From: Caballeronia sp. LZ062
Lineage (GTDB): Bacteria > Pseudomonadota > Gammaproteobacteria > Burkholderiales > Burkholderiaceae
Direction: 5' to 3'
NCBI RefSeq assembly: GCF_031450785.1
Contig: NZ_JARTWB010000002.1
Span: 2,480,001 to 2,544,000 of the forward strand
Length of the DNA stretch: 64,000 nt
Numbering within the stretch: position 1 is the first letter of the stretch; the number at the start of each line of letters is the position of its first letter. The notes under the pieces are model-generated. The model had not been told where the DNA came from. It did not search any database and saw nothing but the letters and a program-made list of their open reading frames with translations. Made by a program: the position numbers and the translations under genes. Below are positions 17,703 to 61,253 of this stretch, piece after piece.

Positions 17703-18380
17703 TTAGAGCGGGCGGGCTTGTCCGCGGAAGACCTGGCTGCGATGCCAGTCGACGAACTGGGTCGACGGGTGATGCTCCGCTCTGACGGGCGCGTTCAGGC
17801 GATTGCCGTGATGTCGCAGCAAGATGTGGTCGAACTGGTCGGTGCCGTGCGCTTCTTCGGAGACCAGCACGCGACGTTCATCGCCGAGCGTGAAAGCGCC
17901 GATATCGAAGAGCTTGTGATGCAGACAGCACAGCGCGATGCCGTTTTCCACCACATCCGGTCCCTCGAACTGGAACCATTTGATGTGCGCGGCTTCGAGG
18001 CCGATCGTGCGGTTGCCGATGCGCATGTCGAGATTGCACAGCGCGCAGCGGTACTCGTACGCCCTGAGTACGTCGTCGCGGAAGTTGGGGCTGCGGCGCG
18101 TCTTGCCGGTCTGCGGCGCGTCGAGCGAAAGGCCGACGGCGGCGAGAATGTCCTCGTGCATGCTGTCGGGAAAATGCGCGTCGAGCAAGACGCGGGCGAC
18201 GTCGCTGATGGCTTGCGGATCGCTGTCGAAGGCGCGCTGGACGTCGTCGGAGAACCGGCCCGTTGCGTCGATGGCGCGCAATTGCGTCTTGGTCAGCGCC
18301 GCGTTCGACGCGATCGCGCCGCGTGATCCGTGCGCGTCGACACGCCAGACATCATCGCTTTGCAGGCGAAGGAACGGCAT
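17703..18380 (-). pseudogene. HNH nuclease of the phosphorothioate-dependent McrA type, N-terminus lost
   Basis: The remaining 226 residues contain an intact-looking HNH domain: C112-x2-C115, H132 (AAHIKW), N146 (VENGIALC), H154-H155 and D159 in CCLHHKLFDIGAF. The middle (LLDAHFPDSMHEDILAAVGL) and the end (FVDWHRSQVFRG) match, from my memory of the family, restriction enzymes that bind and cut phosphorothioated DNA (SprMcrA/ScoMcrA type). Those run to about 290 residues and begin with a sulfur-binding domain that includes an APHKPLLLL-like stretch. Here the similarity starts abruptly at MPFLRLQ, corresponding to the PFWRLQ segment near the end of that domain's first half. An IS21-like end begins 6 bases upstream. 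The frame continues 26 codons into the IS relic. Either the gene is dead or it makes a nuclease without its sulfur reader. Confidence 0.75.
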
Positions 18381-18385
18381 TTCAG

Positions 18386-18583
18386 TGTTAATTTGCGCCG
18401 GAAACTGACCCACTTTTGCATCTAGAATTGAGCCACCCCTGATGCTCAGAAACATCATTCTGGTGTGTCGATTTCCTGCTCTATTGGAAGTTTGGATGAG
18501 CTTTTACGGGTTGCAGCCCGCGAAGCGGGCTGTGCCCCGCCGTGCTGTTTTTAAAGCGCCAGAAATCGTTGCCTGTTTCCACT
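18386..18583 (-). mobile_element. Relic of an IS21-family element (one end plus istB 3' end)
   Basis: About 198 bases closely resemble 58759-58955, the left end of the intact IS21-family element in this window. They share the tip (TGTTAATTTGCGCC against TGTTGATTTGCGCC), the two AACTGACCCAC-like repeats and the last codons of istB. Base differences throughout show it is an older or different copy. Similarity stops at about 18583 and the rest of the element is missing. It marks the left junction of the 18.6-28.9 kb island. Confidence 0.88.
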
Positions 18584-18598
18584 AGCGTCCATCGAGCT

Positions 18599-18635
18599 TC
18601 CAACGTTGAGTGATTCGTAATCTTCAACCGTTGGA
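18599..18635. terminator. Hairpin after the receiver-like gene
   Basis: TCCAACG and CGTTGGA arms extended inward by TTGA/TCAA with one bulged C give a stem of about 11 bp. It lies 51 bases beyond the stop of the minus-strand island operon. There is no clear T-tract, so its role as terminator is a guess. Confidence 0.4.
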
Positions 18636-18685
18636 ACTCGCCCCGAATGTGCGTTTCCGTTTAACATCGCGAACGAAGGGAAGCT

Positions 18686-20734
18686 TCAAGACGCCCCATT
18701 CAATCCCTGCTCGATAGCATCTGCGGCCTTCACGCCAGCGATGTACGGATAACATTGAATATGTACGGCGTCTTTGACGACAAGCTTCTCTTCGACAAAC
18801 TCATCCTCGAAGCTTATCTTCCCGCTGACCCTGCTGAACCGCGCAACGCTCTTATCGATATTGAATCGGTAACCCGGCTGTTCGAGAAGCTCTGCCACGA
18901 AATTGGCCACTGGGCCTGGCAAAGCTGCCGCTCCCGCATTTCCGGCGGGAAATTTTTTTGGAAGCTCCTCGCTCAGCCAACCCACCAGCTCTTCGGACAA
19001 GACGACGACTCCGCTCTCGCTCGCGGTGCCTTTACGGCCACCTATTTGAACCATGGACACGAACTCGGTTGGGAATTTGACCAATATCGGCTGCGCACCC
19101 TGTGCCGTTCCCTTTATCCAAAGGCAACCAGTCATCGGGCGTGCAAATGATGGGTCGATAGGGACTCCAACTCGGCTCAAATCACTCATCAGCTTCTGCT
19201 TGATATCGTTAGAAAACGTATCGTTGAGGCGACCACACCTTTCGAACAATCGGGGATTCGCAAGTGTTCTCCAGCGGACAGTTTTGATTGCTTTCGTTTT
19301 CCATTTTATAAGCGCGACTCCATCGTCAGGGTCGCTACTTCTGCGCATCATGTAGCCATCCGAAACCGGATGGGGCATCCCGAAGGCGCTTACAATATCG
19401 GGTACTGTCTGCACCACCGTGCCGCGGACCACGAGCACTTCGAAATCCTCACTACAGCGCAGCAGGTCGCAAGCAGGTGACATGACAAGTAAAAGCTTGT
19501 CGCCCGTATTGAGCATGCGGGACTCGCTTACTTCTTGGCGCGCGGCGAAATCAAGCCAATGGCGGCAATCCTGCTCCAAGTCTTCAAGCATTGAGAGCGG
19601 AAAGTCGAGCTGGTCGAGAATGTGCTTTTCGCGAAGTACGTCTCCGAAGCGCAGACGCCCCGGCCTTACATTCCATGGGTAAGAAAAAGCCACTTCCGAG
19701 TACAGCTGGAACAGCAAACTTCCCGGCCGAAGTCGTCCGCTAAAGTAGAGCTCGTTCGCGTCCGGAATTGCAGCTCCCGCAGTCGACAGCTCGGGGCGGC
19801 CTCTCGTGCGAGCGGCTAGTGCCTCCGAAAAAAGCCACGAAAGATAATTACCAATATGCTGCTCCTCGGTATTGAGGCGACTGGCTTGCAAAAAAGCCAA
19901 GTCATGCAGCTCAAGCCTTTCGATGTCTTCCATCAGCCCTCGCGCTGCATGCTCGACTGCCTGTTTGAAGGAGTTGAGCATGTTGGACAAACCGCGCGCC
20001 GTTAAATCACCATTGCATTTCTCCCTGAGCTGCTTCGCTGTCCATTCAGCAGTAATCCGTGCTTTATCAACCGCTTGAAAAAACGCACTTCGAATCTTAG
20101 TCGTCTGGCGGAAGCGCTCCAGGTCTGGAACATCCGGCAGGTTGGACGACATCAAAATTACATACCTTTCGAGCGAAGCGCCATCGATTCGCGCTCCCTC
20201 GCTCAGGAGTGCTCCCCATTGCTCGTAGCTTTCGATGATTGCGCCCGCGTACGTCTGTCCACGCTCAAGCTCCGGCACCTGTCCTTTCAAGTTGAAGTCG
20301 AGAAACAGAAGGCGACTCGCCTTGATGTCGTCCTCTGCCTCCTCAACGCTCGGATGAGTTTTGACATCGAAGCCGACGGTATCTCGCAGAAATGTGACCA
20401 ACTCTTCCACAGGAGCCGAAGGAGCACCGGCCTGCGCGTCAAACCCTTGGAAGAGCGCGTTGAGAAAACGATACTCTAGTGGTTTGGCCTTCCATAGCTT
20501 CCACGCGTTTTCGAGGAGGAGCTCGTCGACGAGAAAATCCTCGACAGAGTCAAGCTGTGGAATCTCGGCTCGTAACGCTTCTATCTCAGCTTCAGTCACG
20601 GTGCGCTCGAATCGCGCCGAATCAGTGCCGTCGATTCGCGAAAAATCCAACTTTGTGAAACAGTCATCAACGACGACAACAATTGGCGCGAAGGCACGAA
20701 GCAGGTTGTTATCTACTTGGGCAACGGTGCTCAT
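18686..20734 (-). CDS. Receiver-like protein, partner of the double-GHKL ATPase
   Basis: I do not recognise this 682-residue protein as a named family. The N-terminal 210 residues look like a divergent response-regulator receiver: a hydrophobic strand IVVVVDD with an acidic pair at 23-24, RLLFLDFNL with a candidate phospho-acceptor Asp146, and YVILMSSN with Ser196/197 where the conserved Ser/Thr falls. About 80 extra residues sit between the first strand and the aspartate strand. The other 470 residues have no motif I can name; they contain predicted helical and mixed regions and LVMSPACDLLRC. No DNA-binding domain, nuclease or membrane segment is obvious. Its start overlaps the stop of the GHKL gene by 4 bases (ATGA), so the two are translationally coupled. 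It is the last gene of the putative Ssp-like operon. Confidence 0.6.
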   Translation of the reverse strand: MSTVAQVDNNLLRAFAPIVVVVDDCFTKLDFSRIDGTDSARFERTVTEAEIEALRAEIPQLDSVEDFLVDELLLENAWKLWKAKPLEYRFLNALFQGFDAQAGAPSAPVEELVTFLRDTVGFDVKTHPSVEEAEDDIKASRLLFLDFNLKGQVPELERGQTYAGAIIESYEQWGALLSEGARIDGASLERYVILMSSNLPDVPDLERFRQTTKIRSAFFQAVDKARITAEWTAKQLREKCNGDLTARGLSNMLNSFKQAVEHAARGLMEDIERLELHDLAFLQASRLNTEEQHIGNYLSWLFSEALAARTRGRPELSTAGAAIPDANELYFSGRLRPGSLLFQLYSEVAFSYPWNVRPGRLRFGDVLREKHILDQLDFPLSMLEDLEQDCRHWLDFAARQEVSESRMLNTGDKLLLVMSPACDLLRCSEDFEVLVVRGTVVQTVPDIVSAFGMPHPVSDGYMMRRSSDPDDGVALIKWKTKAIKTVRWRTLANPRLFERCGRLNDTFSNDIKQKLMSDLSRVGVPIDPSFARPMTGCLWIKGTAQGAQPILVKFPTEFVSMVQIGGRKGTASESGVVVLSEELVGWLSEELPKKFPAGNAGAAALPGPVANFVAELLEQPGYRFNIDKSVARFSRVSGKISFEDEFVEEKLVVKDAVHIQCYPYIAGVKAADAIEQGLNGAS

Positions 20735-23205
20735 TTTTTTGGCGTATTCTTAAACGACAACACAAAGGCGTGGTGAACGCCGTCCGTACTCACAGGTCCC
20801 AATTCCAAGGTTGCGTCGTTGTATCCCGCAAATTTTCTTGAAATATACAAACCAAGACCTCTGCCCTCGCCCGGTGGCTTGGTGGTCATGAACGGCACAA
20901 AGAGTTGTGGAACGAGCGTGGGCGGTATTCCCGGCCCATTGTCACGAAACGTAAGAGTACGCTCCTGAGCGTCGATGACGACCTGAATTGACGGGCGCAT
21001 CGACCTATCCGACCGAGTCTTCAGCCAGTAGAACGAGTTTGCAAACAAATTATCGAGAATATTTAAAATCTGACCTCTTTCCACCTTAGCTAACAATGGC
21101 TTCTCGAGGCCAGAAACTTTGAAGTCGATATTATGACGAGTCACTTTATCGGCGTGCACTTCTTGGAACGCTTTGACTAGTTCAACGACGTCCGTACCGG
21201 TCCGCCGTTGTCGCCCCGGGATGCTATATACGTCCAAATTGCGAATCTTCTTCTCAAGAGTCTTTACTTGTGCCTCCAACATGCCCTTAACTGCGGCAGA
21301 TTCAAGAGGTTTATCGCCCTTCAGTAAATTTAAGATGTTAGCTGTTACACGAGCCATCTCGTGCGCGATAAATTCGACTTGCAGTCCTCGCCCCGCTAGG
21401 TCTATGTACTGCTCCATTTCCTGTTCTTGAGCGGCAATTGTCAACTTCGCCCTTTCCCAAGCGTCTTGTATCTCACCAAGCTGATAGATAATCTCGCGAA
21501 TATTGCTATCTTGCTCCGGAAGCTCCCTCTGAAGATTCTTAAGCATTCCTACAGCATCGCGCTGTGACTCGGACATTCTCGCTTCGATTTTGTCGATGCT
21601 ACCGAGGTCCTCCTCTCTCTCCTCATTGTCGATTCTTTCGAGAAAAGGTCGACACACATTTATAAATACATGTCTCAAGAGGCGGCGCAATGCTTCTTTT
21701 TCCACGCAATCTCGAAAGCCTTCCCGGTTCGTCTGGTCTTGAAGCGCTGGGTTGTTGTCGTGGGCGATGCGCAGATAGCCGACAATCTGCGCACGGTTTA
21801 GACGATAACGGGATGCCGACAATGCGTTCCTATCCAGGTCCAGCCAGTCGTCTCCTTGAGCCCCATACGGGTATACACGAAAGCCGTCCCGGTAGACTAA
21901 TAGTCCACCACTCCAATTCGCCACGAACGGTTTGAGCGCACTCCATAGGTCCTTGTCCTCTCGCTGTATCCGCCCGCGATTGAACCACCAAAATTTCGCT
22001 TCAAACGGACCGAGCCGACGCAATCCTCCCTCGACCGCATCGTTGGCGGGAAGCGGGTCATCAGCTTTTGGACGCTTTCCGCGAGTCGGGGCCAAGGTGA
22101 TGCAGCTCTTCAAGTGGTCGCCACTGAACGGGAAAACTTGGCGCTTCCCGAAACGCTTGTAGTTAACGTCAACGACCAACTCCATTGGCGTCCAATCTTG
22201 CGAATTGCTGGCTTGTTGCTCTCGCTCCCGAAAACTGATTGTGCATTCAACGTCCGAGTGCTTGAGCTTCATACTTTCGAACTTCCCGAACTCAACTACC
22301 TCGTCCTGAAGCTTCAACAGAAAAAATCTTGTAGCAAACGAGGAGGCGAATGGGTCCGCTAGCTTCACCAACTGACTATTCGTCAAGCTTTCCAGCTTTT
22401 CTAAGTCCCAGTCGCTCTGCAGGTCACGAATTGTAAGCGTAGTCCCACTTGCCTCGGGGTCCGGCTTTGTGCCGCCGAAGGCCGGCTTGAAGTCAACGTC
22501 TTCAATACCGAGATTGGGGTCCGCGAATATTGGCCGATAGTCCAACCGTAGCACATTCCAGAGAGTTGGGTCCTCCGGCTCACCTCGTTCCGTTTCGGGG
22601 ATTTGCATTCGGGCACGCGCGCCTTGCGGGTCGCTAGTTCTCACGTGTACGCTTCGTCCCAAGCGCATTGCGGCTAAGCGTCCGATACCTTTCTCACCGA
22701 GCACAGGTGCGGAAGCTCCTGAGTTGTCAGCTTGACCTGTCGCTTTCGACGTCTGCTTCTGAAGGAGACGCATAGGTGTTCCGACGGTCAAATAGCACTC
22801 CCGTAACGCGTGCCGAGTCATGCCATGCCCCTTGTCGGCGATGACAATTTTATTGCCTGCGAGGTACGCTTCATCGAGTGCGGTTCTAGCCGCCGCTGAG
22901 GTCGCGGGTTCCGCGAGTGCCTCATAGAATTTCGCACGCATCCTTGCTGGCGCGTCAATCTCGACTAAGGAGTCGACTTTGGCGGTAAAGGCCTCTATGT
23001 CATAGTTGGTTGCGTGGTCATCCAACCAGTCACACAAGAGCCGATATTTTGAATGCTGAAGGGTGATAGACACTTCAAACCGAAGTTCTTTCGAACCAGC
23101 ATCAATCGCATTTTTTGCAAGCTCATACACCGCAACTGCATCCGAGCTTATTAGTTCTGCACCTAATTCGAGCAGTACACGTGCTTTAAAGGTGAACGCC
23201 ATCAC
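20731..23205 (-). CDS. Protein with two GHKL ATPase modules (Hsp90/MutL-like plus histidine-kinase-like)
   Basis: The 824-residue protein has two separate ATP-binding sites of the GHKL type. The N-terminal one resembles Hsp90/MutL: ELAKNAIDAG at 28-37 (N32, D35), IADKGHGMT at 122-130 and GEKGIGRLAAMRLG at 170-183. The C-terminal one resembles sensor kinases: EFIAHEMARV with His615 in an H-box position, an N-box DNLFANSFYWLK, DNGPG at 755-759, FVPFMTTKPPG and GRGLGLYISR near 782. A helical, charged region precedes His615. There is no membrane segment, so any sensing is cytoplasmic. The paired downstream gene supplies a receiver-like domain. By analogy it could transmit a signal from ATPase or DNA sensing to its partner, but that is inference. 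It lies 27 bases downstream of the ATP-pyrophosphatase gene. Confidence 0.72.
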   Translation of the reverse strand: MMAFTFKARVLLELGAELISSDAVAVYELAKNAIDAGSKELRFEVSITLQHSKYRLLCDWLDDHATNYDIEAFTAKVDSLVEIDAPARMRAKFYEALAEPATSAAARTALDEAYLAGNKIVIADKGHGMTRHALRECYLTVGTPMRLLQKQTSKATGQADNSGASAPVLGEKGIGRLAAMRLGRSVHVRTSDPQGARARMQIPETERGEPEDPTLWNVLRLDYRPIFADPNLGIEDVDFKPAFGGTKPDPEASGTTLTIRDLQSDWDLEKLESLTNSQLVKLADPFASSFATRFFLLKLQDEVVEFGKFESMKLKHSDVECTISFREREQQASNSQDWTPMELVVDVNYKRFGKRQVFPFSGDHLKSCITLAPTRGKRPKADDPLPANDAVEGGLRRLGPFEAKFWWFNRGRIQREDKDLWSALKPFVANWSGGLLVYRDGFRVYPYGAQGDDWLDLDRNALSASRYRLNRAQIVGYLRIAHDNNPALQDQTNREGFRDCVEKEALRRLLRHVFINVCRPFLERIDNEEREEDLGSIDKIEARMSESQRDAVGMLKNLQRELPEQDSNIREIIYQLGEIQDAWERAKLTIAAQEQEMEQYIDLAGRGLQVEFIAHEMARVTANILNLLKGDKPLESAAVKGMLEAQVKTLEKKIRNLDVYSIPGRQRRTGTDVVELVKAFQEVHADKVTRHNIDFKVSGLEKPLLAKVERGQILNILDNLFANSFYWLKTRSDRSMRPSIQVVIDAQERTLTFRDNGPGIPPTLVPQLFVPFMTTKPPGEGRGLGLYISRKFAGYNDATLELGPVSTDGVHHAFVLSFKNTPKK

Positions 23206-23232
23206 TTGCCCCTCGGTTTTGATTTTTCTTGT

Positions 23233-24120
23233 TCACAGCTGACAAACTAAGCAGCCTTGGTCATCATCGTCATCTGCCTCTTCGCCGGTATCTGCATCTT
23301 TGAACAGCTCGAGTAGCGTTACATTCTCTCGACGTTCAATTTTTCGCTGCACGCGGATGATATGCTCGGTCCTAATCTGCTCCATACGCGCAGGTTGCTC
23401 TAGCTCTGCCAGACTTTCACCTTGACTCCAGGTGAAGAAATTTCCCGTCTTCTCGTATGGCCGCTCATATTCCTTCGCCTTTTCATACAGGTCGGGATGC
23501 GTCTCCTTGAGCCTGACCCACTCTATTTTTTGCTGGTAAAAGCAGAAATAGCATCCCGAGCGCGTTCTTCCCCATTTGGTGTACGGCGGCATACCGACGC
23601 CGGCGACACGAAGAATTTCTTCAATGTCTCGCAATACCAGTCCCGCGTCAATGAACGGATAGACCGCTTTGATGTTGGGTTTGTGGCTAATGTACCCGGA
23701 GCGGTTCTCGTCTGCCCTTAGGCCCACGTAGTTGATGACTTCGTCATTGCCGCAATACTGCTCAAAAGGTTTCAGTTTGAGCGCTCGAGTGCACCAACGG
23801 CGGTGATTTGAAGGAATCATTCCGCCGTACATCTCATACCAGTGGTCAAAACCTAAGTCTGCGTTGAGTCTTGTGACCGGCTTTCCTAGGTAATTCGAAA
23901 TCTTGTCCAAGAATTCGTACGTTTCTGGCAGTTCCTTGCGCGTATCGCTAAAAATATATTCCATCTCGGGTACCTTGTCTCTCATGAAGAGGGCCAAGGC
24001 GGCACTGTCTTTGCCGCCCGAGAGACTCAAAATGTGCCTAACTCGCTTTTTTTCGACCGTCAATCTCGGCTCCAATGCGCATTTCGTTGGCTTGCAATAC
24101 CTCAGCCAGCGCTTGTGCAA
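23233..24120 (-). CDS. PAPS-reductase-like ATP pyrophosphatase (SspD/DndC-like)
   Basis: This protein of up to 295 residues belongs to the PP-loop ATP pyrophosphatases. The PP-loop is SGGKDS at 34-39, followed by FSDTRKELPETYEFL and the HRRWCTRALKLKPF segment typical of PAPS-reductase-like enzymes. A CYFC pair in RTRSGCYFCFYQQK may bind a cluster or metal. In Dnd and Ssp systems such proteins (DndC, SspD) activate the DNA backbone so that sulfur can replace a non-bridging oxygen. The first ATG gives an 83-base overlap with the ATPase gene; an in-frame TTG nearer the PP-loop is an alternative start. Between the SspC-like and GHKL genes it forms the third step of the minus-strand operon. It could also serve another sulfur- or adenylation-type reaction, but the neighbours favour DNA phosphorothioation. 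Confidence 0.75.
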   Translation of the reverse strand: MHKRWLRYCKPTKCALEPRLTVEKKRVRHILSLSGGKDSAALALFMRDKVPEMEYIFSDTRKELPETYEFLDKISNYLGKPVTRLNADLGFDHWYEMYGGMIPSNHRRWCTRALKLKPFEQYCGNDEVINYVGLRADENRSGYISHKPNIKAVYPFIDAGLVLRDIEEILRVAGVGMPPYTKWGRTRSGCYFCFYQQKIEWVRLKETHPDLYEKAKEYERPYEKTGNFFTWSQGESLAELEQPARMEQIRTEHIIRVQRKIERRENVTLLELFKDADTGEEADDDDDQGCLVCQL

Positions 24121-27100
24121 GCGCTGCCTGCAACATTTCGGCGTCGCCGTTCACCTGCGGTTTCAACGAGGTCAATATCTTGTCAGCCAGCTCTTTCGCC
24201 TTTTTTGAAGAGGCCACGAGCAGCGAGCGTTCTTCACCGCCAAAAGAGGTAATCGTGAAGCTCAAGAAGCGCTCTGTCGCTTCTCGGTGTTGACCCCGCT
24301 CCATCGCAACCTTCAACCACCGCTTGTACCGACCACAAAGCTCCAAAATCACGTCTCGAAACATGGGAAGGCTGTCATCGGCCCAAGACTCCATGGGCCT
24401 TTTAACGATGAGCGTGGCGAGTGAGTCGAGCCAGCGGTCGTCTACAGGAGTAACGTCGACGCATCGGAGCACGAATGCCTTCAGCTCTACGTCAGCTAGG
24501 TCTGCTGCTAAGTCGGCACATTCCCGCTGGAGCTGAGTCCTTACCACAGCCAATGGTCCGGGGATTCCAAATGCACGGCCCAACGTGGCGGCAGCCTCTT
24601 CCTGAAGGCGACGATACGCGCTGCCCAGTTCATTCATTGCAGAACTCAAGCGGCGGACAAAGTCCTTCGCTCCTGCGTCTTGATTGAATAGGGAGGGGAT
24701 TTGTTCACTCAGAAGTTCAATCGGGTCTGTGGCGCGTTTTAGCGTCGAGCGCAGCAATTTGGCGTCGGCCGATACGCTCAAGGTTTCTTGCGCGTACTCT
24801 GGAAGCCGGGCGTACCAGCGGACCATTGCTCGTGACAGTTCAAGGAACGTCGGTGCCGCCGACAGCGACTGGCCAACAGACGCCAGAACCGAGCAATACT
24901 GGTGTTGCAACTTTTCCCCGTGACCAGCGTCGGAAAACTCGCGCAGCTGAAATGCGTCGGGATTCTTGAACATGCGAGCCAAGTGGTCCGCAGTGAGCTC
25001 GAGGACGAGGGTCCCGCGTTCGAATACGGCGCATACGTCACGCTTTGCCAATAGATAACTGACGACCCAAACTGATGCTACGCCCTGCCTGATACCCAAG
25101 GGTGGCAAGCTCAGTTGCTCCAAGATAGTGCGGAAACTTGTCGGCATCGCCGTCCGGAGCAGTGTTTCGATTCTTTGCCAGACGTGTTTCAATGATTCTG
25201 GGGTCGACCAAGGCGCGTTGGCTCGCTCGGTATAGATTCCCGTGTCCCGCAGCAGCGTGGCATAAAGAAGACGCTCTGGAGGGAACTCGACGGTACCGAA
25301 AAGTGCTTCGCCTGGCATATGTGTTGCCATCAATTTTTCAAACAGTCTCTGTCGCGCGAGCACAATCGCGGAGGAGGGGCGGTCCTTATTGATAAGCTCA
25401 TTGACGAGCGTCGGACAATCCGTGAATACGGCGTCAAACATCCACGACGCTGCCTGGCTGACATTCAACTGCGTAGCGCTAGGTACCGGCTCACCCTCGT
25501 AGTGGTAGTCACTTTGTCCGAGGAGCCGGCTCATCACATTGGCTTCGACACGCCGACGTACGTCGGCTAGTGAATTTTCAACGTATCTCGACGTCCAAGG
25601 GTCCAAGGTGCCGTTTTGTGTTGCGGCCTTGACCGACATCCAGCGCGACAATTCGCGAAGTGACGTGAGCGCGCTTTCGCTGAGCTCGATGGACGTCCAA
25701 AGGACCAATGGGCACCCTTTGGTCGATTGAAGCGCCATCGCTCTCTCGCGATGCTCAGAGCGAGACTCATCAACGAGGATGACATTAATCAAGCCATCTG
25801 CATCTGACGAATAATTCGGAAAGTCATCAACGGCCTGACCAACGTTGATTGACACCGTCCGAAATGTCCCCTTCCGGTGGTAATGGCCGCTTGCAACAAC
25901 CGTATTTTCACTCAACAATTTCTGAAGTCCGGCAACCGTGAGGTCACTCGCAGAGTCTCCCGCAACTTCGTAAAGGGCATCAACATTGACGGATTCATTG
26001 ACGGCGAACGCGTACCCTTCACCTCCTGGTGTTTTGAGCAAGATACATCGCTTGCAGCTTTCGTCCAAAGCGGCCTGAATATCAGCCACTGAAAATTTGT
26101 CTGCGAGGGCGAAGGCTATCAAGTCGGGAGTCGCGGCTAGCCGTGCACTGCTCCTCATCAGCTCGAGTACCGATAAAGCTTGCAATACGGAAACCTCGAT
26201 TTCCGACCTCTCACCGGCATCCTCGATAGCGCCTAGAGCAAATTCCCATCTACGTTCGGTGGCCAAATCACGAAATCGCAGGCGGGCGCCCTGTCTCAAG
26301 AACGAAAATAGCTGCTCACTTGAGTACCAGTTCTTCGCGTCGAGAGTTCGCGTCTGAATAAAGTCTCGGAATGCATACGGTTCGTGCCCACGCAGGAATG
26401 CGTGAAACGAGCGCTCGCTCTGTCCCATTCGCTTGGAAACGTGCGCCATTGCCGAAAGCACGACCGGGTGCAGCGGGAAAAGCCTTTCAGCGTGCTCAAA
26501 TAATTTATTGTCAGCTTCGCCGGAGCTACGAAGAAGCCCGAGCGTGAGAGCGCGCTTATAGTTTGCGCGCGCCGTCCGTTGAATAGACTGCACCCTCGTC
26601 ACTGACGCCGGCGCCGCAAGCGCGTGAGCAGCAAAATGTGCGTAGCGTTGCACAGGCTCATCAAACGCGACCTCATCGAAACGGCCGGATATCTTATGCC
26701 ACTCATCCGATGCGGTGCGGCCGACGCCTTTGGCGTAGTCGGCGAGGTGCTGGTGGAGCATCGTCACCACAAACAACGATGCATCGTCGCCTCGGCAGGC
26801 TAATTCCGCGACCTGCTGCAAAACCATGAGGTCGCCCTCCGCGGGCCATAGCGTCGCGTGCTCGACAAATTTTCCAAGTTCGTCGATGAGGAGGAGTACG
26901 CCACCATAGCCTTGTTCCTGGGCGCAGGAAATCAAATCCAATAGAAGAGAATTGGATGCCGAGTTCAGCCGCTGGCCTTTATAAGTTCCTTGCTCTAAGT
27001 CAATTGCCTTGACCACTTTGGTTGCGCCACGATGGTCCGTCCACGTCTGCAGTGTCTCTTTCGCGCTCTTGGCAATAGCGGAACCGAGAGACGTACGTGA

Positions 27101-27454
27101 ACCACCGACTGCGAGTGGAAGCAGGTTGCTTCCTGGGCGGAAGAGTGCGGCGACATGTGGGGCTCGCTCGGAAAGGGCGCCAAAAACGTTGCGTGCCGCC
27201 TTTGGCCCGGCCAAAAGGCGCGAAAGCAGTAACGCCAGAGCAGATTTACCGCTGCCGTACGGGCCAATAATCTTCCAAGCTCTTTGCTTGCCCTGCGTCT
27301 TTACACCGGTACCAATTTGAGTCAGCGCAGAAATTACTGCCGGAGTAAGCATATAGCCGTCAAGGGCGTCCTTGTCATGCAAGTCGCGCTCGAGGGAAAT
27401 CGACCGGCTGAAATGGCGGTCAAGAAGCAGATGAGTCGCAATAGGCTCAGACAT
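24038..27454 (-). CDS. Large P-loop ATPase (SspC-like)
   Basis: A 1138-residue cytoplasmic ATPase. Walker A is GPYGSGKS at 64-71 and Walker B is VLLLIDELGKF with D191/E192, both in an N-terminal domain that starts soon after the first residue, as in the BrxC/SspC kind of defence ATPase. The remaining 900 residues are mostly helical with no catalytic motif I can name. It overlaps the stop of the DUF4007 gene by 8 bases and its own stop overlaps the pyrophosphatase gene. In SspBCD systems the ATPase SspC works with the nickase SspB and with SspD. I assign SspC by position and layout, not by a sequence comparison. It is distinct from the BrxC of the BREX operon at 51.7-55.1 kb. Confidence 0.7.
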   Translation of the reverse strand: MSEPIATHLLLDRHFSRSISLERDLHDKDALDGYMLTPAVISALTQIGTGVKTQGKQRAWKIIGPYGSGKSALALLLSRLLAGPKAARNVFGALSERAPHVAALFRPGSNLLPLAVGGSRTSLGSAIAKSAKETLQTWTDHRGATKVVKAIDLEQGTYKGQRLNSASNSLLLDLISCAQEQGYGGVLLLIDELGKFVEHATLWPAEGDLMVLQQVAELACRGDDASLFVVTMLHQHLADYAKGVGRTASDEWHKISGRFDEVAFDEPVQRYAHFAAHALAAPASVTRVQSIQRTARANYKRALTLGLLRSSGEADNKLFEHAERLFPLHPVVLSAMAHVSKRMGQSERSFHAFLRGHEPYAFRDFIQTRTLDAKNWYSSEQLFSFLRQGARLRFRDLATERRWEFALGAIEDAGERSEIEVSVLQALSVLELMRSSARLAATPDLIAFALADKFSVADIQAALDESCKRCILLKTPGGEGYAFAVNESVNVDALYEVAGDSASDLTVAGLQKLLSENTVVASGHYHRKGTFRTVSINVGQAVDDFPNYSSDADGLINVILVDESRSEHRERAMALQSTKGCPLVLWTSIELSESALTSLRELSRWMSVKAATQNGTLDPWTSRYVENSLADVRRRVEANVMSRLLGQSDYHYEGEPVPSATQLNVSQAASWMFDAVFTDCPTLVNELINKDRPSSAIVLARQRLFEKLMATHMPGEALFGTVEFPPERLLYATLLRDTGIYTERANAPWSTPESLKHVWQRIETLLRTAMPTSFRTILEQLSLPPLGIRQGVASVWVVSYLLAKRDVCAVFERGTLVLELTADHLARMFKNPDAFQLREFSDAGHGEKLQHQYCSVLASVGQSLSAAPTFLELSRAMVRWYARLPEYAQETLSVSADAKLLRSTLKRATDPIELLSEQIPSLFNQDAGAKDFVRRLSSAMNELGSAYRRLQEEAAATLGRAFGIPGPLAVVRTQLQRECADLAADLADVELKAFVLRCVDVTPVDDRWLDSLATLIVKRPMESWADDSLPMFRDVILELCGRYKRWLKVAMERGQHREATERFLSFTITSFGGEERSLLVASSKKAKELADKILTSLKPQVNGDAEMLQAALAQALAEVLQANEMRIGAEIDGRKKAS

Positions 27455-28355
27455 GTGCTATGACATCCAGAAGCGAAAAAATAGATTCGGCAGATGAAAG
27501 AAGTTTCTCGTCGCAGACCACACTCTGGGTGTCGGCGGTGTCTATCAATCGAATCGCACCACCTGTTAAGCATTCCGTCTGCTGCAGAAAATCATAAAGA
27601 CGGGGTTCATCGAGTCGAAAGATTGCGCCGGGACTCAGTTTCGCCAGTGCGAGCTCATGCATCGGCAGGGACTTCCGCTTTGACGATTGCATGCGAAAAA
27701 AGTGAGCTAACGCGGCAGTAAACACTCGCACGCTGAGGCCAATTGGTGATGCAACGGAAGAGTCATAGATTGTCGCGCCTGTCCTGCTTGGTACCGGTCG
27801 GACTAGCTTCAGGTCTTGCAGCGGGCACCACAGACTGTCGTCAGTTGACTCGTTTGTCCGCACGTAGCTCTGCAGGAAAATCGAGGTGTGCTGCTCAACA
27901 GTTGACTGGGCAAGCGCGCGTGCGTTGCCAGCACCACGCTGGGTCAATTTTGCAACGACATCGGCTTTCTCAAAGCGGGCCATAGAGACATCGCCAAAAA
28001 CGACGTTCCAAGCAGCTATGTTGGCATTTGCGGAAAGCCACCAGTGAAGAAGCCAGAGCGATTCGGGCTTTTCGAGGAAAGGGTCCCATCCTCCATCGTT
28101 GAAGAGGAGTCGACCCGTTGGCCCAGCAACATGGCCTTTGCCGTCCCCACGCGCTACTTGAATAACGCCTGTAGCTTCCCCCCAGAACTGTAGTGACCTA
28201 ACCATGTTGCGGCCGATACCTAACCGCTCCGTAGCTTCAGCGTCCTTCTTTAATATCTCAGGCGAGGCGTTGACGGCATCGAAAACCTTACGCAACCAGC
28301 CATAGCGGCAGACAAACGATTCATGACCCGAAAATCGTTCCGCAGTAAATTCCAT
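27447..28355 (-). CDS. DUF4007 protein (SspB-like nickase candidate)
   Basis: The 302-residue product opens with RFSGHESFVCRYGWLRK and continues RLGIGRNMVRSLQFWGEA, the signature of DUF4007. As I recall, SspB, the single-strand nicking component of SspABCD phosphorothioation systems, carries this domain; that link should be checked. It is the first gene of a five-gene minus-strand operon: 8-base overlap with the ATPase, then pyrophosphatase, GHKL protein and receiver-like protein. No cysteine desulfurase (SspA/DndA) gene is present next to it, so sulfur would have to come from a housekeeping desulfurase. If correct it would nick one strand at the modification site. No strong ribosome site precedes the ATG. 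Confidence 0.75.
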   Translation of the reverse strand: MEFTAERFSGHESFVCRYGWLRKVFDAVNASPEILKKDAEATERLGIGRNMVRSLQFWGEATGVIQVARGDGKGHVAGPTGRLLFNDGGWDPFLEKPESLWLLHWWLSANANIAAWNVVFGDVSMARFEKADVVAKLTQRGAGNARALAQSTVEQHTSIFLQSYVRTNESTDDSLWCPLQDLKLVRPVPSRTGATIYDSSVASPIGLSVRVFTAALAHFFRMQSSKRKSLPMHELALAKLSPGAIFRLDEPRLYDFLQQTECLTGGAIRLIDTADTQSVVCDEKLLSSAESIFSLLDVIAHV

Positions 28356-28964
28356 ATGCTGTTCGAATGATGTGTGACGCGCATGTCGCGCAAGTGCTCA
28401 CTTACGCACCCCTTCCGGATACCAGCACCGAGAGCGCGCAGTTCCGCACTTATGGGAACGAATATTACCGTTTTTCCTGCGAATCAGCTCCGTTATCGGT
28501 GAAAATCACCGATTTCTCCGCCTCACCTTCAGTTGAAAAAGATGCCGCGACAGTTCGTCCGACCGAACGCCAAGGACTCTCTATTCCTATTTGGTATCGC
28601 AGATATATCGTTGCTCGCATTGTGAAATTTTGAGAATTTAATGCGTAATAGTCCAATGAGTTTGCTGGAAAGATGATGATGCGGGACTCTGTATCAAAAT
28701 CTGCGCTTGCGTTGGCGGCGTTGGCGGCTGACATTCCGTACGATATTAGTAGCGCGACCCGACCGAGCGTCTGTCCTAATTACAAGGATGATGCCGTGCG
28801 GCTGTTTCGGGTTCACCGTCATATGGAAAATGGGCCGACGCGAGCCGTGTCTAAGCATCTGTCACTATCAGCGACTTTGCGGATTCTGCGATTTGAGGAC
28901 TATGGCGCGAAAAGCATTGTGTCTCACACAGCTAACTCGCTCTATAGGCGCAGACTACTAACAA
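28356..28964. other. AT-richer intergenic region at the right edge of the island
   Basis: About 600 bases with no gene I can support. It should contain the promoter of the DUF4007-led operon. A small palindrome AAGTG-CT-CACTT at 28392-28403 lies 37 bases before that start codon and could be an operator. Short open frames on either strand here show no family motif, and one of them runs through the gyrB terminator. The composition is like the island, so the right junction is probably between here and 28965. Confidence 0.5.
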
Positions 28965-29000
28965 AACAAACCCATAAGTTTCTCAACTTATGGGTTTGTT
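28965..29000. terminator. Terminator of gyrB
   Basis: A perfect 16-bp stem (AACAAACCCATAAGTT and complement) with a TCTC loop and T/A runs at both ends, 34 bases beyond the gyrB stop. Confidence 0.93.
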
Positions 29001-29033
29001 TTTCTCAGGTTATGCGTCTATCTACATCTCCCC

Positions 29034-43820: not shown

Positions 43821-45869
43821 TCACTCAGCCATCGCTTTAATCAAGGCATCCTTGGCATCCGAATAGAACTGGATGTCGACCTTGGTTGCCATATCGTCAG
43901 ATAAATCGACCAATTGGCGCCTACACGCCACCGGCATAAGAAGCGACGTCGCCCCCTTCTCCACAGCAACCTCCGCAATCGCGACGGCGTTGTGAAAAGG
44001 CTCGATCGAGCCACCAAGATTGATCTCGCCAACAATGATCAAACCGCCGCGCACGCTGCGCTTCAACAGCGACGTACATAGGGCGACCAAGCAGGCAACG
44101 CCCAGCTTCGCACCGGACTTACCGGAGTCAAATGCTCGAAGCTGCACAGTGAACTCATGCTGACGCGGCTCCTTGTCACCAACCAACTGTAATGCCCTAG
44201 CGTACAGGTTCTGCTCGGCGAAGCCTATGCTTTCCCGGAATGCAGGAGGGTTTGGTTTGTTGAGTACCTTCACGCCAGTTCCAGGGCCTTCGTTGACTTC
44301 AATGCGGTAAAGGCCAGCGCTTTCTTCACCGTTGCCGGGGCTTATGGTCCATACCTGTCCAGGTTCGAGCGGGTCGCCGCCGATGGCGTTGTCGCTTTGG
44401 AGCTCGGGCGTGGAAACAAACTTCTCAATACCGTCCGCGCCCATGCTGTAGCTGAAGTGTGTATTACGAAATTCTGCTGCACCCACGCGCTTTTGCTGCT
44501 CCTTCACCCTGCGACGCGCCTCCATGGCAACTCGAACGGCCCACTCTAGATCCTCGTCGGGGACCACAGCCTCTCCATTTGGATAGAGCAGTTTCAGTAG
44601 GCCGGAAACCGTCTTGTTGACCGCGTTAGTGTCGCGGCCAGACAGCGCACCACCAAAGCAGACTCGGTTCTGAAGCTCGCTCACACGACTCTGCTTTCGC
44701 AGCTGACTCCAACACTCGGACAAGAAGTCACTGACCAGGCCAAAGTGATTGGTCACCAGATCTTTGTTTATCTTCGGGACGTCCCACCCTGGCAGAAATG
44801 CGTGAATGCGGTCCATGAAGGCAGTGTCGTTGCGCATTTCCGGCGGCATGGGGCCAAACAGGTGCCCCGTTCGCTGCTGGTGTTCAACGTCGACATCGAA
44901 GTTGCCCACCATCACGATACTGCCGTCGGCGCGGATGCTCTCTTTTCCACGACTAAATTCGCCCGACTCCATGTAGCCCTTCATGATATTCACACCATCC
45001 TTTTGATCGAAGGAAATGCCCGACACCTCATCGAAGCAGACGACGTCATATTGACATACCAGCCCTCGGCGCCCCTTGGCCGTGTTCTCCACGAACATCT
45101 TGGCTACCGTAGCTTTCCCACCTGATACAAGGTGCGCATAAGGCGAGACCTGTTGAAACAGATGGCTTTTACCGGTGCCGCGAGGCCCTAGCTCCACTAG
45201 GTTGTAGTTGCTCTCGACGAACGGAACCATGCGTAGCATCAACGCGCTGATCTGGCGATCAGTTAGCCCGATAGGTTCAATACCAACAGATCGCAGCAGG
45301 AAGTTCTTCCAATTTTCGGTCGAAAACGCTTGACGGGCCTTCGTCAGAGTATCCAACACGTCACGCTTGGATAACTGAATTTCCCGCAACGATGCGATGC
45401 CAAACGGACGTCCTTTGCTTTCTTGGGCAATCGCCACATCAAAAGTCACCCCCAGTTCGGCATAGAAGCCCCCTGTCAACATTCGCTCGTGTTGATTGAC
45501 CAGTTCGCTGCCGATGCGTACTTCCGTTAGGCGCAAACTCGGCAAACTCGCCACGTACTCACCTTTGTTATCCACCCGCGCCGTCACTAGGTCGATGATC
45601 TTCACTTCGCCGGTTTCAAGCGCCTTGGCCTTGAAAAGCTCTTCCTCGCCCGCTCGCACAGTGCGGGACCTAAGCTGGCGCTGAACAATTTCCAAACCCT
45701 CGTCGATCTCCTCCTGATCGGTGCTAGCACAATAACGCCCGAGCATAAATTCAACGACGTAGGTGGGTACCGGAAACTGTCGGCTGAAAGTGCGAACCAA
45801 GTCTTTCCGGACCAGATACCCGTCCAGCACCGAGGCGGCATCTCTATCGATCTGATCCAATTCAATCAT
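43821..45869 (-). CDS. brxL: BREX protein BrxL (Lon-like AAA+ protein)
   Basis: The 682-residue product is the Lon-like AAA+ component of type 1 BREX phage defence. Walker A is GPRGTGKS at 228-235 and Walker B is VVCFDEVSG with D280/E281. The C-terminal domain has the Lon-protease-like layout (AFDSGKSGAKLGVACLVAL, then GGLIIVGEINLGGSIEPFHNAVAIAE and GATSLLMP). It is the last gene of the operon, 3 bases after pglZ. Its exact action in defence is not settled. Confidence 0.93.
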   Translation of the reverse strand: MIELDQIDRDAASVLDGYLVRKDLVRTFSRQFPVPTYVVEFMLGRYCASTDQEEIDEGLEIVQRQLRSRTVRAGEEELFKAKALETGEVKIIDLVTARVDNKGEYVASLPSLRLTEVRIGSELVNQHERMLTGGFYAELGVTFDVAIAQESKGRPFGIASLREIQLSKRDVLDTLTKARQAFSTENWKNFLLRSVGIEPIGLTDRQISALMLRMVPFVESNYNLVELGPRGTGKSHLFQQVSPYAHLVSGGKATVAKMFVENTAKGRRGLVCQYDVVCFDEVSGISFDQKDGVNIMKGYMESGEFSRGKESIRADGSIVMVGNFDVDVEHQQRTGHLFGPMPPEMRNDTAFMDRIHAFLPGWDVPKINKDLVTNHFGLVSDFLSECWSQLRKQSRVSELQNRVCFGGALSGRDTNAVNKTVSGLLKLLYPNGEAVVPDEDLEWAVRVAMEARRRVKEQQKRVGAAEFRNTHFSYSMGADGIEKFVSTPELQSDNAIGGDPLEPGQVWTISPGNGEESAGLYRIEVNEGPGTGVKVLNKPNPPAFRESIGFAEQNLYARALQLVGDKEPRQHEFTVQLRAFDSGKSGAKLGVACLVALCTSLLKRSVRGGLIIVGEINLGGSIEPFHNAVAIAEVAVEKGATSLLMPVACRRQLVDLSDDMATKVDIQFYSDAKDALIKAMAE

Positions 45870-45872
45870 GCA

Positions 45873-48218
45873 TCATCCTCCACCAATCACGGTGGTGGCG
45901 GAAGCCACCACGTCGCCTGACGCATTGAGCAGGACGAGAAACGCCTCGCGACCATGCAATTCTTCGTTTTCGACAACTACCGAGGCGGTGCCGTTGTCCT
46001 TAAACGGCTTGATGCTCACTACCACACTGGTTTCCGCATCGCCAACATGCATCCGAATATCCAGTGCCAGATTCGCATACCGCCCGTCCACAGCAACCGT
46101 GCATCTCATCGAGCCTTTCCAGGCAATGTCAGTCACCTCAGCCACCGGCTGGCCCGATATGTCCGCTCCTTGGGTTACTACGAGGTCTAGGACAAGACAT
46201 TCTTGCAGGCTAAGCCCTCCATGGCTGTAGTCCACCGATTTACCGTAACAACTCACACCATCGGCAAGCGCAAACTGTTGATGCGGATTCCAAAACCAAG
46301 GATACAAGCGCTCGCTGGTTGAAGCACCAGGCTTGATCGAGGCGCAACGGCCCCATTTATTGTCGGTGAGATCCTTGGACATCGGAATACTGGGCAACTT
46401 GCCCGGCATCAGCAGCCAGCCGTGGTCGGTCACTACCCTGACGCTGCTCCAACCTTCGGCCAGCAAGGCGGAAATGCGCTCAGCAATTTCTGCGAGAAGC
46501 AAGTTGATGTGCTTAGCCAGCTTCCAACCGCGGGCATGCCCCTCACTATCGAGATCGCCGAACTCGCACCATGCGTTCCCTTGCCCGTCACCGTTTTCGG
46601 TACGGTCCAGCACCTTCCAATGGTTGTCGATTAACAGCTTCTTCAAGTGGTAGCCGCCCTTGAGCGACTGGCCAGTGGCCGCAATGCAAGGCTCGAAGTC
46701 ATCGCAGTCATCGGTGCCACTGATCTTGCTCCGTACCGGTGAGACCGCCGCTTTTCCCGTTGCAGTCACGCTCGGCAACGCCGTCCAATTCACGGCTTCG
46801 GCCACTTTGTAGCCGTGAACCTCCAGGACGGCCGTGAGCCGACGAGCTGCATCAAAGCGAAGGCCATCCACAAACAGCACGCATTCACCCTTTGAGGCAG
46901 AAAAAGGCTTGGCGCTTGCGATCGTTCCACCGGGGTAGCTCGATCCTTCGACGACCTTTTGTAAATATCGTGCGGACTCTTCCAGCCAAGGCAGATAGAT
47001 GGCCCGAATTGCTGTTGTCACTGCATCAACGTCCGACGCTCTTTCGACGCAAGCGAGTGCTGCCAGCATCGCGTCATCGGCTCGCCAACCTTGATTGGAG
47101 TATCCGGCCTGCAAGTCTGCAACCGAGCCGGCAGCCAGCGCCGTCTTGGTCACATCCGCCACAACGGCTAGCGGCTTGGTGGCCAATGCCAGCGACGATT
47201 CGCCCAACTCTGCCCAAACCAAGTCACGCCGTGGCGCATGGGTTCTATCAAGCTCCAGCACGCGCTTCCTTGCGTCATGCGCCGGCAGGTGTTTCAAGGT
47301 CAGCAGATCATGCTGGAGCGACTTCTCTTGATCCTGATTCCATTGGGGCCAGCCGCCTGCGGAATCTGCGGTAGCGAAAAGATCAAAGATTGGCGGCTTG
47401 CAGTGGCGAATGCGATTGGAGATGTTCGGGTAGCGCTTCGGCGCTTCGCTATAACGGTCCCACACCGAATGCCATGGCCCCTCACGCAGGGCTAGCTTGC
47501 TGGCACCTGCCAGAACACCCTCCGCTTGCGGGTCGAATGCCAATTGCGACTTGCAAACCTCGACGAAGGCTTTCCACTCATTGAAGCCACGCGTGGCTTG
47601 GAATGCGTCGCCCAGATTCAGCCACTGCAGCAGGTCGCGCACCGGGTCGCCGCCGGTCAGCAGTGTGTTGAAGTAGTCCTTGTCCAGCCGCTTGCCCCTC
47701 AAGAGCTCGAGCTCTTCATCCAGCAGCCGATACAGCGCAAGTTGCATGGCGTTCTTAGCTTCTTTGTCTTGGGCCACATCGAGACCCATGCCGCCCTGAT
47801 CCGACTTAAGGAAGGCCATGACGGTCCAGTCTTTGGCGTTCGACTGGGACCAGATCACACCCCGGTACTGCAATTCAGCCAAGGGCTTCAGAAGGTCCGG
47901 GCAGTCTTCGATCGCCCGCAAGTCTTGTCGGCTTACCCCAGGCAGGTAGAGCACCGGCACGCGGTCGGCCGGCAAGTTGACACCGGGCGCTTTGCCAGCG
48001 ATCACGCAGCGCAGCCAAATGGCCGGGCCGAAACGATTCTCTGGCGCGTAGTCGCTCAGCACCAGCATTTCCGCCAGCTCGCTCTGCAGCCGCGGAATTA
48101 CCGCCTCCCACTGACGGTCTTTGTCAGGCCACAAGATGCACGACGGCGCGACCTGAACATCGGGGTTGAAAATTGCCACGTCGCGCACCGTCTTGACCAG
48201 ATGCTCGATTACGCGCAC
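45873..48218 (-). CDS. pglZ: BREX protein PglZ (alkaline-phosphatase-superfamily)
   Basis: This 781-residue protein belongs to the PglZ family, which has an alkaline-phosphatase-like metal site. The motifs FVDGLRFDAARRL (D451), VVTDHGWLLMPG (D598, H599) and HGGLSLQECLVLDLVV are in order in the second half. PglZ is needed for both methylation and phage exclusion in BREX and is thought to regulate PglX. It lies between pglX (38 bases upstream) and brxL. The length is within the family range. Confidence 0.94.
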   Translation of the reverse strand: MRVIEHLVKTVRDVAIFNPDVQVAPSCILWPDKDRQWEAVIPRLQSELAEMLVLSDYAPENRFGPAIWLRCVIAGKAPGVNLPADRVPVLYLPGVSRQDLRAIEDCPDLLKPLAELQYRGVIWSQSNAKDWTVMAFLKSDQGGMGLDVAQDKEAKNAMQLALYRLLDEELELLRGKRLDKDYFNTLLTGGDPVRDLLQWLNLGDAFQATRGFNEWKAFVEVCKSQLAFDPQAEGVLAGASKLALREGPWHSVWDRYSEAPKRYPNISNRIRHCKPPIFDLFATADSAGGWPQWNQDQEKSLQHDLLTLKHLPAHDARKRVLELDRTHAPRRDLVWAELGESSLALATKPLAVVADVTKTALAAGSVADLQAGYSNQGWRADDAMLAALACVERASDVDAVTTAIRAIYLPWLEESARYLQKVVEGSSYPGGTIASAKPFSASKGECVLFVDGLRFDAARRLTAVLEVHGYKVAEAVNWTALPSVTATGKAAVSPVRSKISGTDDCDDFEPCIAATGQSLKGGYHLKKLLIDNHWKVLDRTENGDGQGNAWCEFGDLDSEGHARGWKLAKHINLLLAEIAERISALLAEGWSSVRVVTDHGWLLMPGKLPSIPMSKDLTDNKWGRCASIKPGASTSERLYPWFWNPHQQFALADGVSCYGKSVDYSHGGLSLQECLVLDLVVTQGADISGQPVAEVTDIAWKGSMRCTVAVDGRYANLALDIRMHVGDAETSVVVSIKPFKDNGTASVVVENEELHGREAFLVLLNASGDVVASATTVIGGG

Positions 48219-48256
48219 GGCTGCCCCCCTGCCATTGCGAAGAGGATCGTCATGAT

Positions 48257-51200: not shown

Positions 51201-51640
51201 TGCGGCAGCATGCGGGCCGCCAGCTTGCCGGCCAGCTCCCAACCGTTCTTCGCACTTTCATCTGAGGCGAGTTCCTCGCATTCATCGAGTGTGACGGCCA
51301 CACCGTCAAACATCAGCAGGTCATTGTCGGCGAGAAAGCGAGCGAACAACATGCGGTGCCAGTGCTGGTAGGCCACCTCTTGCAGCAGGTGCTGCACCTC
51401 TTGCTTCCCATAGGTTGGGTTAGTGCTGTTCGAGTCGCGGGCGTCGCCGAGCTGCTTCCCGTGGGTGCGCAGGCGGTTGCGCAGCGCCTTCTCTGCATCG
51501 CTTAGAAAGGCCTCAGGCTTGTCGTGGCCAACGCCAAGTTGGTCCACTGCCGCGTGCGCAGCGGTCTCCGCGACCGTGCGGGCCACTTTGACGGTTTTCT
51601 CCAGCGCGCTACGCAGGTCTTTGTCGAGTGCTTGCATCAT
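48257..51640 (-). CDS. pglX: BREX DNA adenine methyltransferase PglX
   Basis: The 1127-residue protein is the site-specific N6-adenine methyltransferase of BREX, which marks host DNA. Motif I (AdoMet binding) is LLDPCCGSGHFLVAAF at about 279-294. The catalytic motif that is usually NPPY reads NVPYL in HLVVTNVPYLGRRDQG near residue 480. The N-terminal helical part and a long C-terminal target-recognition region are present. The gene starts 12 bases after brxC. It is full length with no frameshift. The proline-to-valine change in motif IV occurs in some PglX-like enzymes as I recall, but I could not check this. Confidence 0.93.
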   Translation of the reverse strand: MMQALDKDLRSALEKTVKVARTVAETAAHAAVDQLGVGHDKPEAFLSDAEKALRNRLRTHGKQLGDARDSNSTNPTYGKQEVQHLLQEVAYQHWHRMLFARFLADNDLLMFDGVAVTLDECEELASDESAKNGWELAGKLAARMLPQIFKPGSPVFELTFAPEHQSELERLLKDLPDEVFKASDSLGWVYQFWQADNKERINKSEVKIGADELPAVTQLFTEPYMVAYLLDNSLGAWWATRHPGKPCPVDLNYFRTLEDGTPAAGKFEGWPDALADFKLLDPCCGSGHFLVAAFLMLVPMRMATEGLSPKEAVNRVLAENIHGLELDPRCVEIAVFAVALEAWRYPDASGKALGVREIPAPNIACCGLKVASKAQDWEALVPDDAPDAEYVRQELRHLHASFSDAPLLGSLLDPARSLKTDLATSSHETLMALLRKALATERSAHPLGDDSDLWELALSAQGLLEAARLLDSRFHLVVTNVPYLGRRDQGDRLKSFCQTYYDDAKSDLANVFLERCTELCSPHGNGVVQIVMPQNWLFLGSYARMRTRFLENFHWLNLAVLGDKAFRTPLGVAPILFSVRDGNKDQGIFSAISTNEQKTADEKSIALKTEPLICLKTKTQLSNPDARISFHEITGGVPLSTVAECYQGVITGDKDRFFRFHWEVSEFAGNWDKLSTTNNGNSVFGGMEEIIFWQSGVGELHKYARETRHKLHDMHESGNRAWGRNGVRVNPQGDLRASPYFGEKFDGSVSVIVPKNKDHALAIMAFCESSAFSEAVRKLDRKRNVTNATFLKVPFDLAYWQEVATSSYPKGSPKLYSDDHAQWIFHGHPRPSTNPLQVAIARLVGYTWPAESDDRLDLSDEARAWVARAKTLRRHADKDGIVCIPPVGREAAAADRLLNLLADAYGDTWSNDVLAQLLTSADHAGKSLETWLRDKFFTQHCALFGNRPFVWHVWDGLRDGFAALVNYHKLDYKTLEALTYTYLGDWIGRQKRDAENGVDGAQEKLAAAEVLKKRLELILAGEEPYDIFVRWKSIEEQPVGWTPDLNDGVRVNIRPFLSVPDVGKRGAGVLRDKPKSLHWEKDRGSDVSSAPWYELGIRYGGKVGDRVNDHHLALAEKNAARAKQRKA

Positions 51641-51652
51641 GGGAATCAGGCG

Positions 51653-55093: not shown

Positions 55094-55106
55094 GTTTTTC
55101 CCTTAA

Positions 55107-56445: not shown

Positions 56446-56465
56446 GTTGGTATCAGTCGTGGTAT

Positions 56466-61151: not shown

Positions 61152-61253
61152 TCCGTTCTCCCGCTTGGCGTCCAAGCGGGAAGTTGAACATGTGGGTCAA
61201 CTTTCGATGCAAATTTCTAGCGGAAGTGGGTCAGTTTTGCGCGCCTATCAACA

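Follow-up and report, generated by a model that had tools for sequence, protein, structure and literature searches.

Of 2,678 sspBCD loci, 2,211 carry neither SspE nor SspFGH, and either further restriction partners or true orphans have been proposed to account for them (PMC8092258). What such modification genes work with is the question raised by an operon on the minus strand of the window (the whole 64,000-nucleotide stretch of DNA analysed here), where three Ssp genes for phosphorothioate (PT) modification are followed by genes for a histidine kinase (HK) and a receiver protein (REC). Part of this gap might be filled by HK/REC, a conserved and concrete candidate that links phosphorothioation to a signalling class so far reported beside DNA methylases.

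The operon and its Ssp genes

Between 18686 and 28355 the window holds five minus-strand open reading frames that overlap or lie at most 27 bases apart, in the order SspB, SspC, SspD, HK, REC, which bears out the one-strand operon of touching or nearly touching genes described in an earlier note on this DNA. That note had also read the first three genes as SspB-SspC-SspD and the last two as a double-GHKL kinase and a receiver protein; profiles (348, 1427 and 388 bits, with the DUF4007 gene matching SspB) agree with it on the former, and a fold model together with conserved motif residues on the latter. The five genes are:

27447..28355, minus strand: sspB (DUF4007), 302 aa; PF13182 221 bits, PADLOC SspB 348 bits, PDB 6juf
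24038..27454, minus strand: sspC, P-loop ATPase, 1138 aa; PADLOC SspC 1427 bits, best BrxC model 281
23233..24120, minus strand: sspD, PAPS-reductase-like pyrophosphatase, 295 aa counted from the listed TTG, the true start probably lying downstream; PADLOC SspD 388 bits, BrxP 47; PF01507
20731..23205, minus strand: HK, 824 aa, predicted N-terminal MORC/Hsp90-type GHKL module and C-terminal histidine kinase (H615)
18686..20734, minus strand: REC, 682 aa, predicted receiver domain (D23, D24, D146, S196, K224) and conserved C-terminal region (G364, C422, R521)

With SspB (DUF4007), SspC and SspD found together by profile, the operon is a predicted SspBCD PT modification cassette. Its SspB matches a solved SspB chain (PDB 6juf), and the SspC and SspD translations contain what we take to be a Walker A stretch and an SGGKDS stretch, respectively. 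The three genes and their order are those of the SspABCD-SspE and SspABCD-SspFGH systems, from which the window operon differs in having the HK/REC pair, in having no sspA in the operon, and in a genome where neither SspE (one model) nor full-length SspH was found. In Vibrio anguillarum, IscS works with sspBCD (PMC8092258).

DUF4007 has been described as a BrxA-like DNA-binding part, and Ssp as related to BREX type 4 (PMC12839542). We rejected an assignment to BREX type 4 because the SspD model scored 388 bits against 47 for BrxP, and because PglZ and BrxL are missing from the operon. The BrxL and PglZ of the window belong instead to a BREX cluster of their own, some 15 kb from the operon. This cluster (43821-57377, minus strand) has type 1 content (BrxL, PglZ, PglX, BrxC, BrxB, BrxA) plus a WYL-domain protein, and the window therefore holds two modification-based defence clusters. 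Beyond it, at 58829-61175 (minus strand), are genes for an IstB-like ATPase and a Mu-type transposase, probably an IS21-family element.

The kinase-receiver pair and its linkage to Ssp genes

The structure model of HK has fold matches to MORC3 and Hsp90, and its GHKL ATPase with an S5-type second domain is the arrangement that defines MORC/paraMORC proteins. On this model, HK joins a MORC/Hsp90-type ATPase to a histidine kinase that keeps its motif residues; the phosphorelay residues are invariant in all 26 aligned sequences. Those of the REC receiver are likewise invariant in 54 of 54 aligned sequences, except S196 (53). As predicted from its sequence, REC is a receiver with motif residues kept and a conserved, unnamed C-terminal region. 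Profile searches matched this region to no database entry and showed no nuclease or toxin motif in it that could be recognised. Nor did REC show a recognisable DNA-binding output domain or match a solved structure, and its model had no Foldseek match at E <= 0.001. Neighbours listed for the predicted structure were receivers only, with residues 250-682 lying outside the matches.

Because two protein searches returned only two and one relatives of REC, homologs were collected from HK loci. A search of genome contigs using the HK alignment yielded 63 loci, or 62 after dropping L070 (a 47-residue match in a genome without SspD). In 57 of the 62, REC is the next gene after HK; where no REC frame was found, the sequence ends soon after HK (L041, L042, L055, L068), except in L047. 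An SspB, SspC or SspD match is present in 56 of the 62 HK-centred loci, in a stretch reaching up to about 10 kb to either side, L047 being included only through an 82-bit SspB fragment. The earlier note tied the pair to sspBCD, and the survey upholds this: with 56 of 62 loci holding these genes, the pair is not found mostly without them. Of the 58 loci with an SspA-D gene, 48 have the nearest one no more than 300 bp from the pair (measured between stop-to-stop frames), and in 10 of 56 cases the pair and the Ssp gene tested are on different strands. SspB, SspC and SspD are all absent from the stretch at L036, L040, L043, L052, L064 and L066; the genomes of L036, L043, L064 and L066 have SspD elsewhere, and SspD was not found in those of L040, L047 and L052. 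By record titles, the HK loci come from Pseudomonadota, Planctomycetota, Chloroflexota, Verrucomicrobiota and other groups. Many are patchily distributed and some are plasmid-borne, the pair adjoining SspBCD on annotated plasmids too. The link of HK/REC to Ssp is specific.

Among 27 loci found through SspD alone, HK/REC is present in three; the pair is an Ssp-linked but minority partner. (One SspD sample took only matches above 90 bits.) An HK search of 398 genomes, with up to two candidates scored per entry, returned among the matches listed the window's own genome and one partial match (G397), and 10 of the 11 strong-SspD genomes in that sample had no HK in the same search. In an SspC tree, a quick build with long branches, the all-HK clade of 42 rows is biased because HK loci were found through HK.

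Pairwise identities over 50 loci correlate at 0.96 for HK and REC and at 0.98 for SspB and SspC, compared to 0.64–0.69 for HK or REC against SspB or SspC (HK against SspC, 0.69). HK-REC and SspB-SspC are thus two tightly coupled modules, tied more loosely to each other. Mean identity in the same loci was 0.215 for REC, 0.318 for SspC, 0.357 for SspB, 0.378 for HK and 0.599 for SspD, making REC the most divergent component. Such rapid divergence would fit an adversary-facing part, without proving it.

Known effectors were absent from the surrounding stretch (about 10 kb) in 41 of the 62 HK loci. The remaining 21 have another arm nearby: SspFGH in 15, Pbe in four, SspE in one, and a helicase-MzaB-PLD module in one. 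The earlier note had put the pair in the slot of SspE or SspFGH. That placement suits the 41 loci but not the 21, and on account of the latter we rejected the pair as a strict substitute for those effectors. Of the 41 genomes with effector-less loci, 36 have no full-length SspH (matches are absent or cover the FtsK-like end only), and five (L017, L018, L039, L045, L062) have one elsewhere, the L017 copy being split over two contigs. Many of the 36 are drafts and may use effectors outside the set scored, and two of them, L047 and L052, had no SspD found either. SspE, searched with one model (PDLC02789, which matched four of four genomes known to have SspE), had no match in 44 genomes, the window's own included. 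SspH matches in the window's genome are partial and FtsK-like (profile 1505-1791 and 1558-1791 of 1798), and the profile search found no SspF, SspG or SspH in the window.

The 27 SspD-centred loci carry SspFGH in 12 cases (weak in L102 and L106, at 47–66 bits), the helicase-MzaB-PLD module in eight, SspE in four, HK/REC in three, Pbe in one, and nothing recognised in four; some hold two. The helicase-MzaB-PLD module recurs beside SspBCD and consists of a helicase-like protein with weak PbeA similarity, an MzaB-like protein and a PLD-type (ZacB/DrmC-like) protein. It was seen in L090, L092, L093, L094, L096, L104, L113 (where no PLD gene was seen) and L114, as well as in the HK locus L050, and is possibly a further Ssp effector arm.

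Relatives and possible roles of the pair

The kinase/receiver build is already known from beside DNA methylases (2021), and a kinase beside Ssp genes from passing mention in Acinetobacter. The 2021 paper describes adjacent HK-like HEF_HK and RR-like Response_reg_2 proteins (PF19191 and PF19192) that are related to paraMORC and enriched near R-M genes, foremost C5 methylases (PMC8011034). The window pair is alike in its adjacent genes, a two-GHKL kinase and then a receiver-like protein, in the paraMORC-like combination of N-terminal HATPase_c_3 and C-terminal HATPase_c in HK, and in being tied to DNA modification genes. In the window these are PT genes instead; no C5-methylase or other R-M gene adjoins the pair, and its nearest other neighbors are a truncated endonuclease and gyrB. 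The main text of PMC8011034 has no occurrence of phosphorothio, DUF4007 or phosphoadenosine.

PF19191 gave no match in the window HK at E <= 1, nor was it among the best 25 of the 34 families matching the HK alignment, and it scored 18.8 bits against an Acinetobacter HK relative, below its cut-off of 24.1. PF19192 had no match in the window REC and reached E <= 0.1 in two of 48 relatives (best 0.047). We did not file HK/REC under HEF_HK/Response_reg_2, as both profile tests failed, with no positive control; since the methylase-linked L125 and L126 pairs match neither profile either, this failure does not separate the window pair from the methylase-linked group. That group consists of eight distant HK relatives on plasmids (L125-L132) beside cytosine, N6 or unspecified methyltransferase genes, the L126 neighbor being annotated only as a SAM-dependent methyltransferase and the L127 pair also having a type II endonuclease. 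A Cys-Asp motif like that of REC is present in six of the eight partners (L125, L126, L127, L128, L131, L132) and absent from the short L129 and L130. Profile comparison with REC gave a probability of 95.9 for L126, a weak 59.3 for L132 (over REC 411-525), and less than 15 for L125, L127, L128 and L131, so that in these four the motif was recognised by eye only. The Ssp-linked partners L124 and L006 scored 99.1 and 97.9. Related Cys-Asp output domains seem to serve the methylase-linked pairs.

Like MORC and paraMORC ATPases, HK is a GHKL ATPase amid DNA-modification genes, with a model that matches MORC3; unlike them, it carries a histidine kinase in the same protein and has a receiver as its partner (PMC2292703). 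For Acinetobacter, two papers mention in passing a histidine kinase close to Ssp genes, one guessing at a regulator of SspE, which it places beside the kinase (PMC7464106), the other at a possible new Ssp variant (PMC12421847). In A. baumannii L006, HK and REC are next to SspD, SspC and SspB, on opposite strands, and SspE was not found at the locus, unlike the placement in PMC7464106; the Acinetobacter kinase probably belongs to the HK family. The terms GHKL, histidine kinase, receiver and DUF4007 are all absent, by term search, from the available text of a reappraisal paper (PMC10853773). A literature search by title and abstract, mainly of open-access papers, found among the matches listed none that characterises the pair beside Ssp genes. 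To that extent the pair deserves the description "new-looking" given in the earlier note, which holds neither for its build, known beside R-M genes, nor for the presence of a kinase near Acinetobacter Ssp genes.

Two-component logic in phage defence has a precedent in Detocs. Our preferred reading, held tentatively and with chances a little short of even, is that the SspBCD PT modification cassette brings along a soluble two-component signalling arm, which senses DNA or its sulfur marks and executes or gates interference. The MORC-type clamp of HK would close on DNA or on the Ssp complex and sense foreign DNA or PT state; His615 would be phosphorylated, the phosphoryl group would move to Asp146 of REC, and the C-terminal region of REC (C422, R521) would then interfere with the invader or trigger such interference. 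Where a genome lacks SspE and SspFGH, this downstream role would fall to the pair. We favor this because of the SspBCD assignment and the close linkage (56 of 62 loci; 48 of 58 within 300 bp), the 41 loci without a local effector (36 of these genomes without full-length SspH and none with SspE), the phosphorelay residues kept, the HK-REC correlation of 0.96, the divergence of REC, and the MORC3/Hsp90 folds. Counting against it are the lack of an effector motif in REC, the 21 loci with other effectors, the methylase-linked kin, once with a type II endonuclease (L127), as a regulator would sit, the 10 of 56 pairs on the opposite strand, the presence of the pair in just three of 27 SspD-centred loci, and the chance that the 36 genomes, many of them drafts and two without SspD (L047, L052), use other effectors. 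A more specific version, in which the clamp reads backbone sulfur and His-to-Asp transfer fires a new output domain (C422/R521) as a defence arm, is rather unlikely; if true, it may be one of an entire class of two-component immune modules that sense DNA modification. If the clamp senses PT state, this would to our knowledge be the first phosphorelay coupled to a mark on the DNA backbone.

The pair accompanies SspBCD regardless of which effector is present (SspFGH, Pbe, SspE, the helicase module or none), its relatives accompany cytosine or N6 methylases and not one effector type, and REC has no effector motif. All of this would suit a control circuit in which HK/REC senses modification state and adjusts SspBCD activity or expression, or restrains a restriction arm against self-damage, with no part in attack; regulation or a new variant has also been guessed from the kinase near Ssp genes (PMC7464106, PMC12421847). 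Such a circuit is a serious possibility, if on balance doubtful, as there would be nothing local to restrain in 41 of 62 loci (36 genomes being without full-length SspH and none having SspE), and the fastest divergence is that of REC. Ordinary transcriptional control is also unsupported, because REC has no recognisable DNA-binding output domain. That PT marks and the pair tune host physiology, as epigenetic or stress signalling by a locus that is not an immune system, would agree with other roles in print for orphan PT modification (PMC8092258), but we consider it improbable given that many loci are patchy, some are on plasmids, and the operon here belongs to an inserted block with a BREX cluster some 15 kb away. 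The three of 27 SspD-centred loci and the partial coupling of the HK and SspC trees (identity correlation 0.69) might even suggest chance or hitch-hiking neighbors of SspBCD, which is very hard to reconcile with SspB, SspC or SspD in 56 of 62 HK loci, 48 of 58 within 300 bp, across several phyla.

The insertion site

The gene after REC and the block that contains the operon are:

17703..18458, minus strand: 5'-truncated gene for a PT-dependent restriction endonuclease; NF045808 266 bits (cut-off 180), profile 64-284 of 284; HNH_2
18384..29028, no strand: block carrying the entire Ssp-HK-REC operon; six relatives have no equivalent, as judged by alignment to L116

Homology between the window and its relatives breaks at 18383-18400 and 29025-29031, and in the alignment to L116 the block puts 10,645 bases in place of 255 bp. 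The six best relatives (L116-L121) have an open frame of 310–318 residues, stop to stop, in the same place as judged by gyrB-side sequence. By these alignments, the block has replaced the 5' part of a predicted PT-dependent endonuclease gene that is full-length in the six relatives. Among the repeats listed, no target-site duplication stood out.

The remnant keeps the HNH part and has lost the start of the sulfur-binding domain; compared to the complete sulfur-binding domain plus HNH of NF045808, the first 63 profile positions are missing. The lost part includes H-K and Y-P pairs that by our reading seem to match H116/R117 and Y164/P165 of the ScoMcrA sulfur pocket (PMC6224610). The remnant need not be inert, since SprMcrA-S, an N-terminally shortened relative, kept partial activity in vitro (PMC7461809). 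Its dN/dS against four relatives (0.11–0.14, vs. 0.10–0.15 for intact pairs) does not distinguish recent truncation from continued constraint.

An endonuclease match occurs in 18 of 58 genomes of the genus, including that of the window. Across 299 genomes of the family, SspD is present in 10 and the PT-dependent endonuclease in 15, and both occur only in the window's genome, where the endonuclease copy is truncated; this enzyme is limited to one genus, where just three sampled genomes hold SspD, and these overlap counts are no evidence alone. An attractive possibility, on which the co-occurrence counts are too small to bear, is that loss of the endonuclease let the modification genes settle. 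With part of a PT-dependent restriction gene displaced by the block, the site lends itself as a natural experiment on how the making of PT-DNA conflicts with its cutting.
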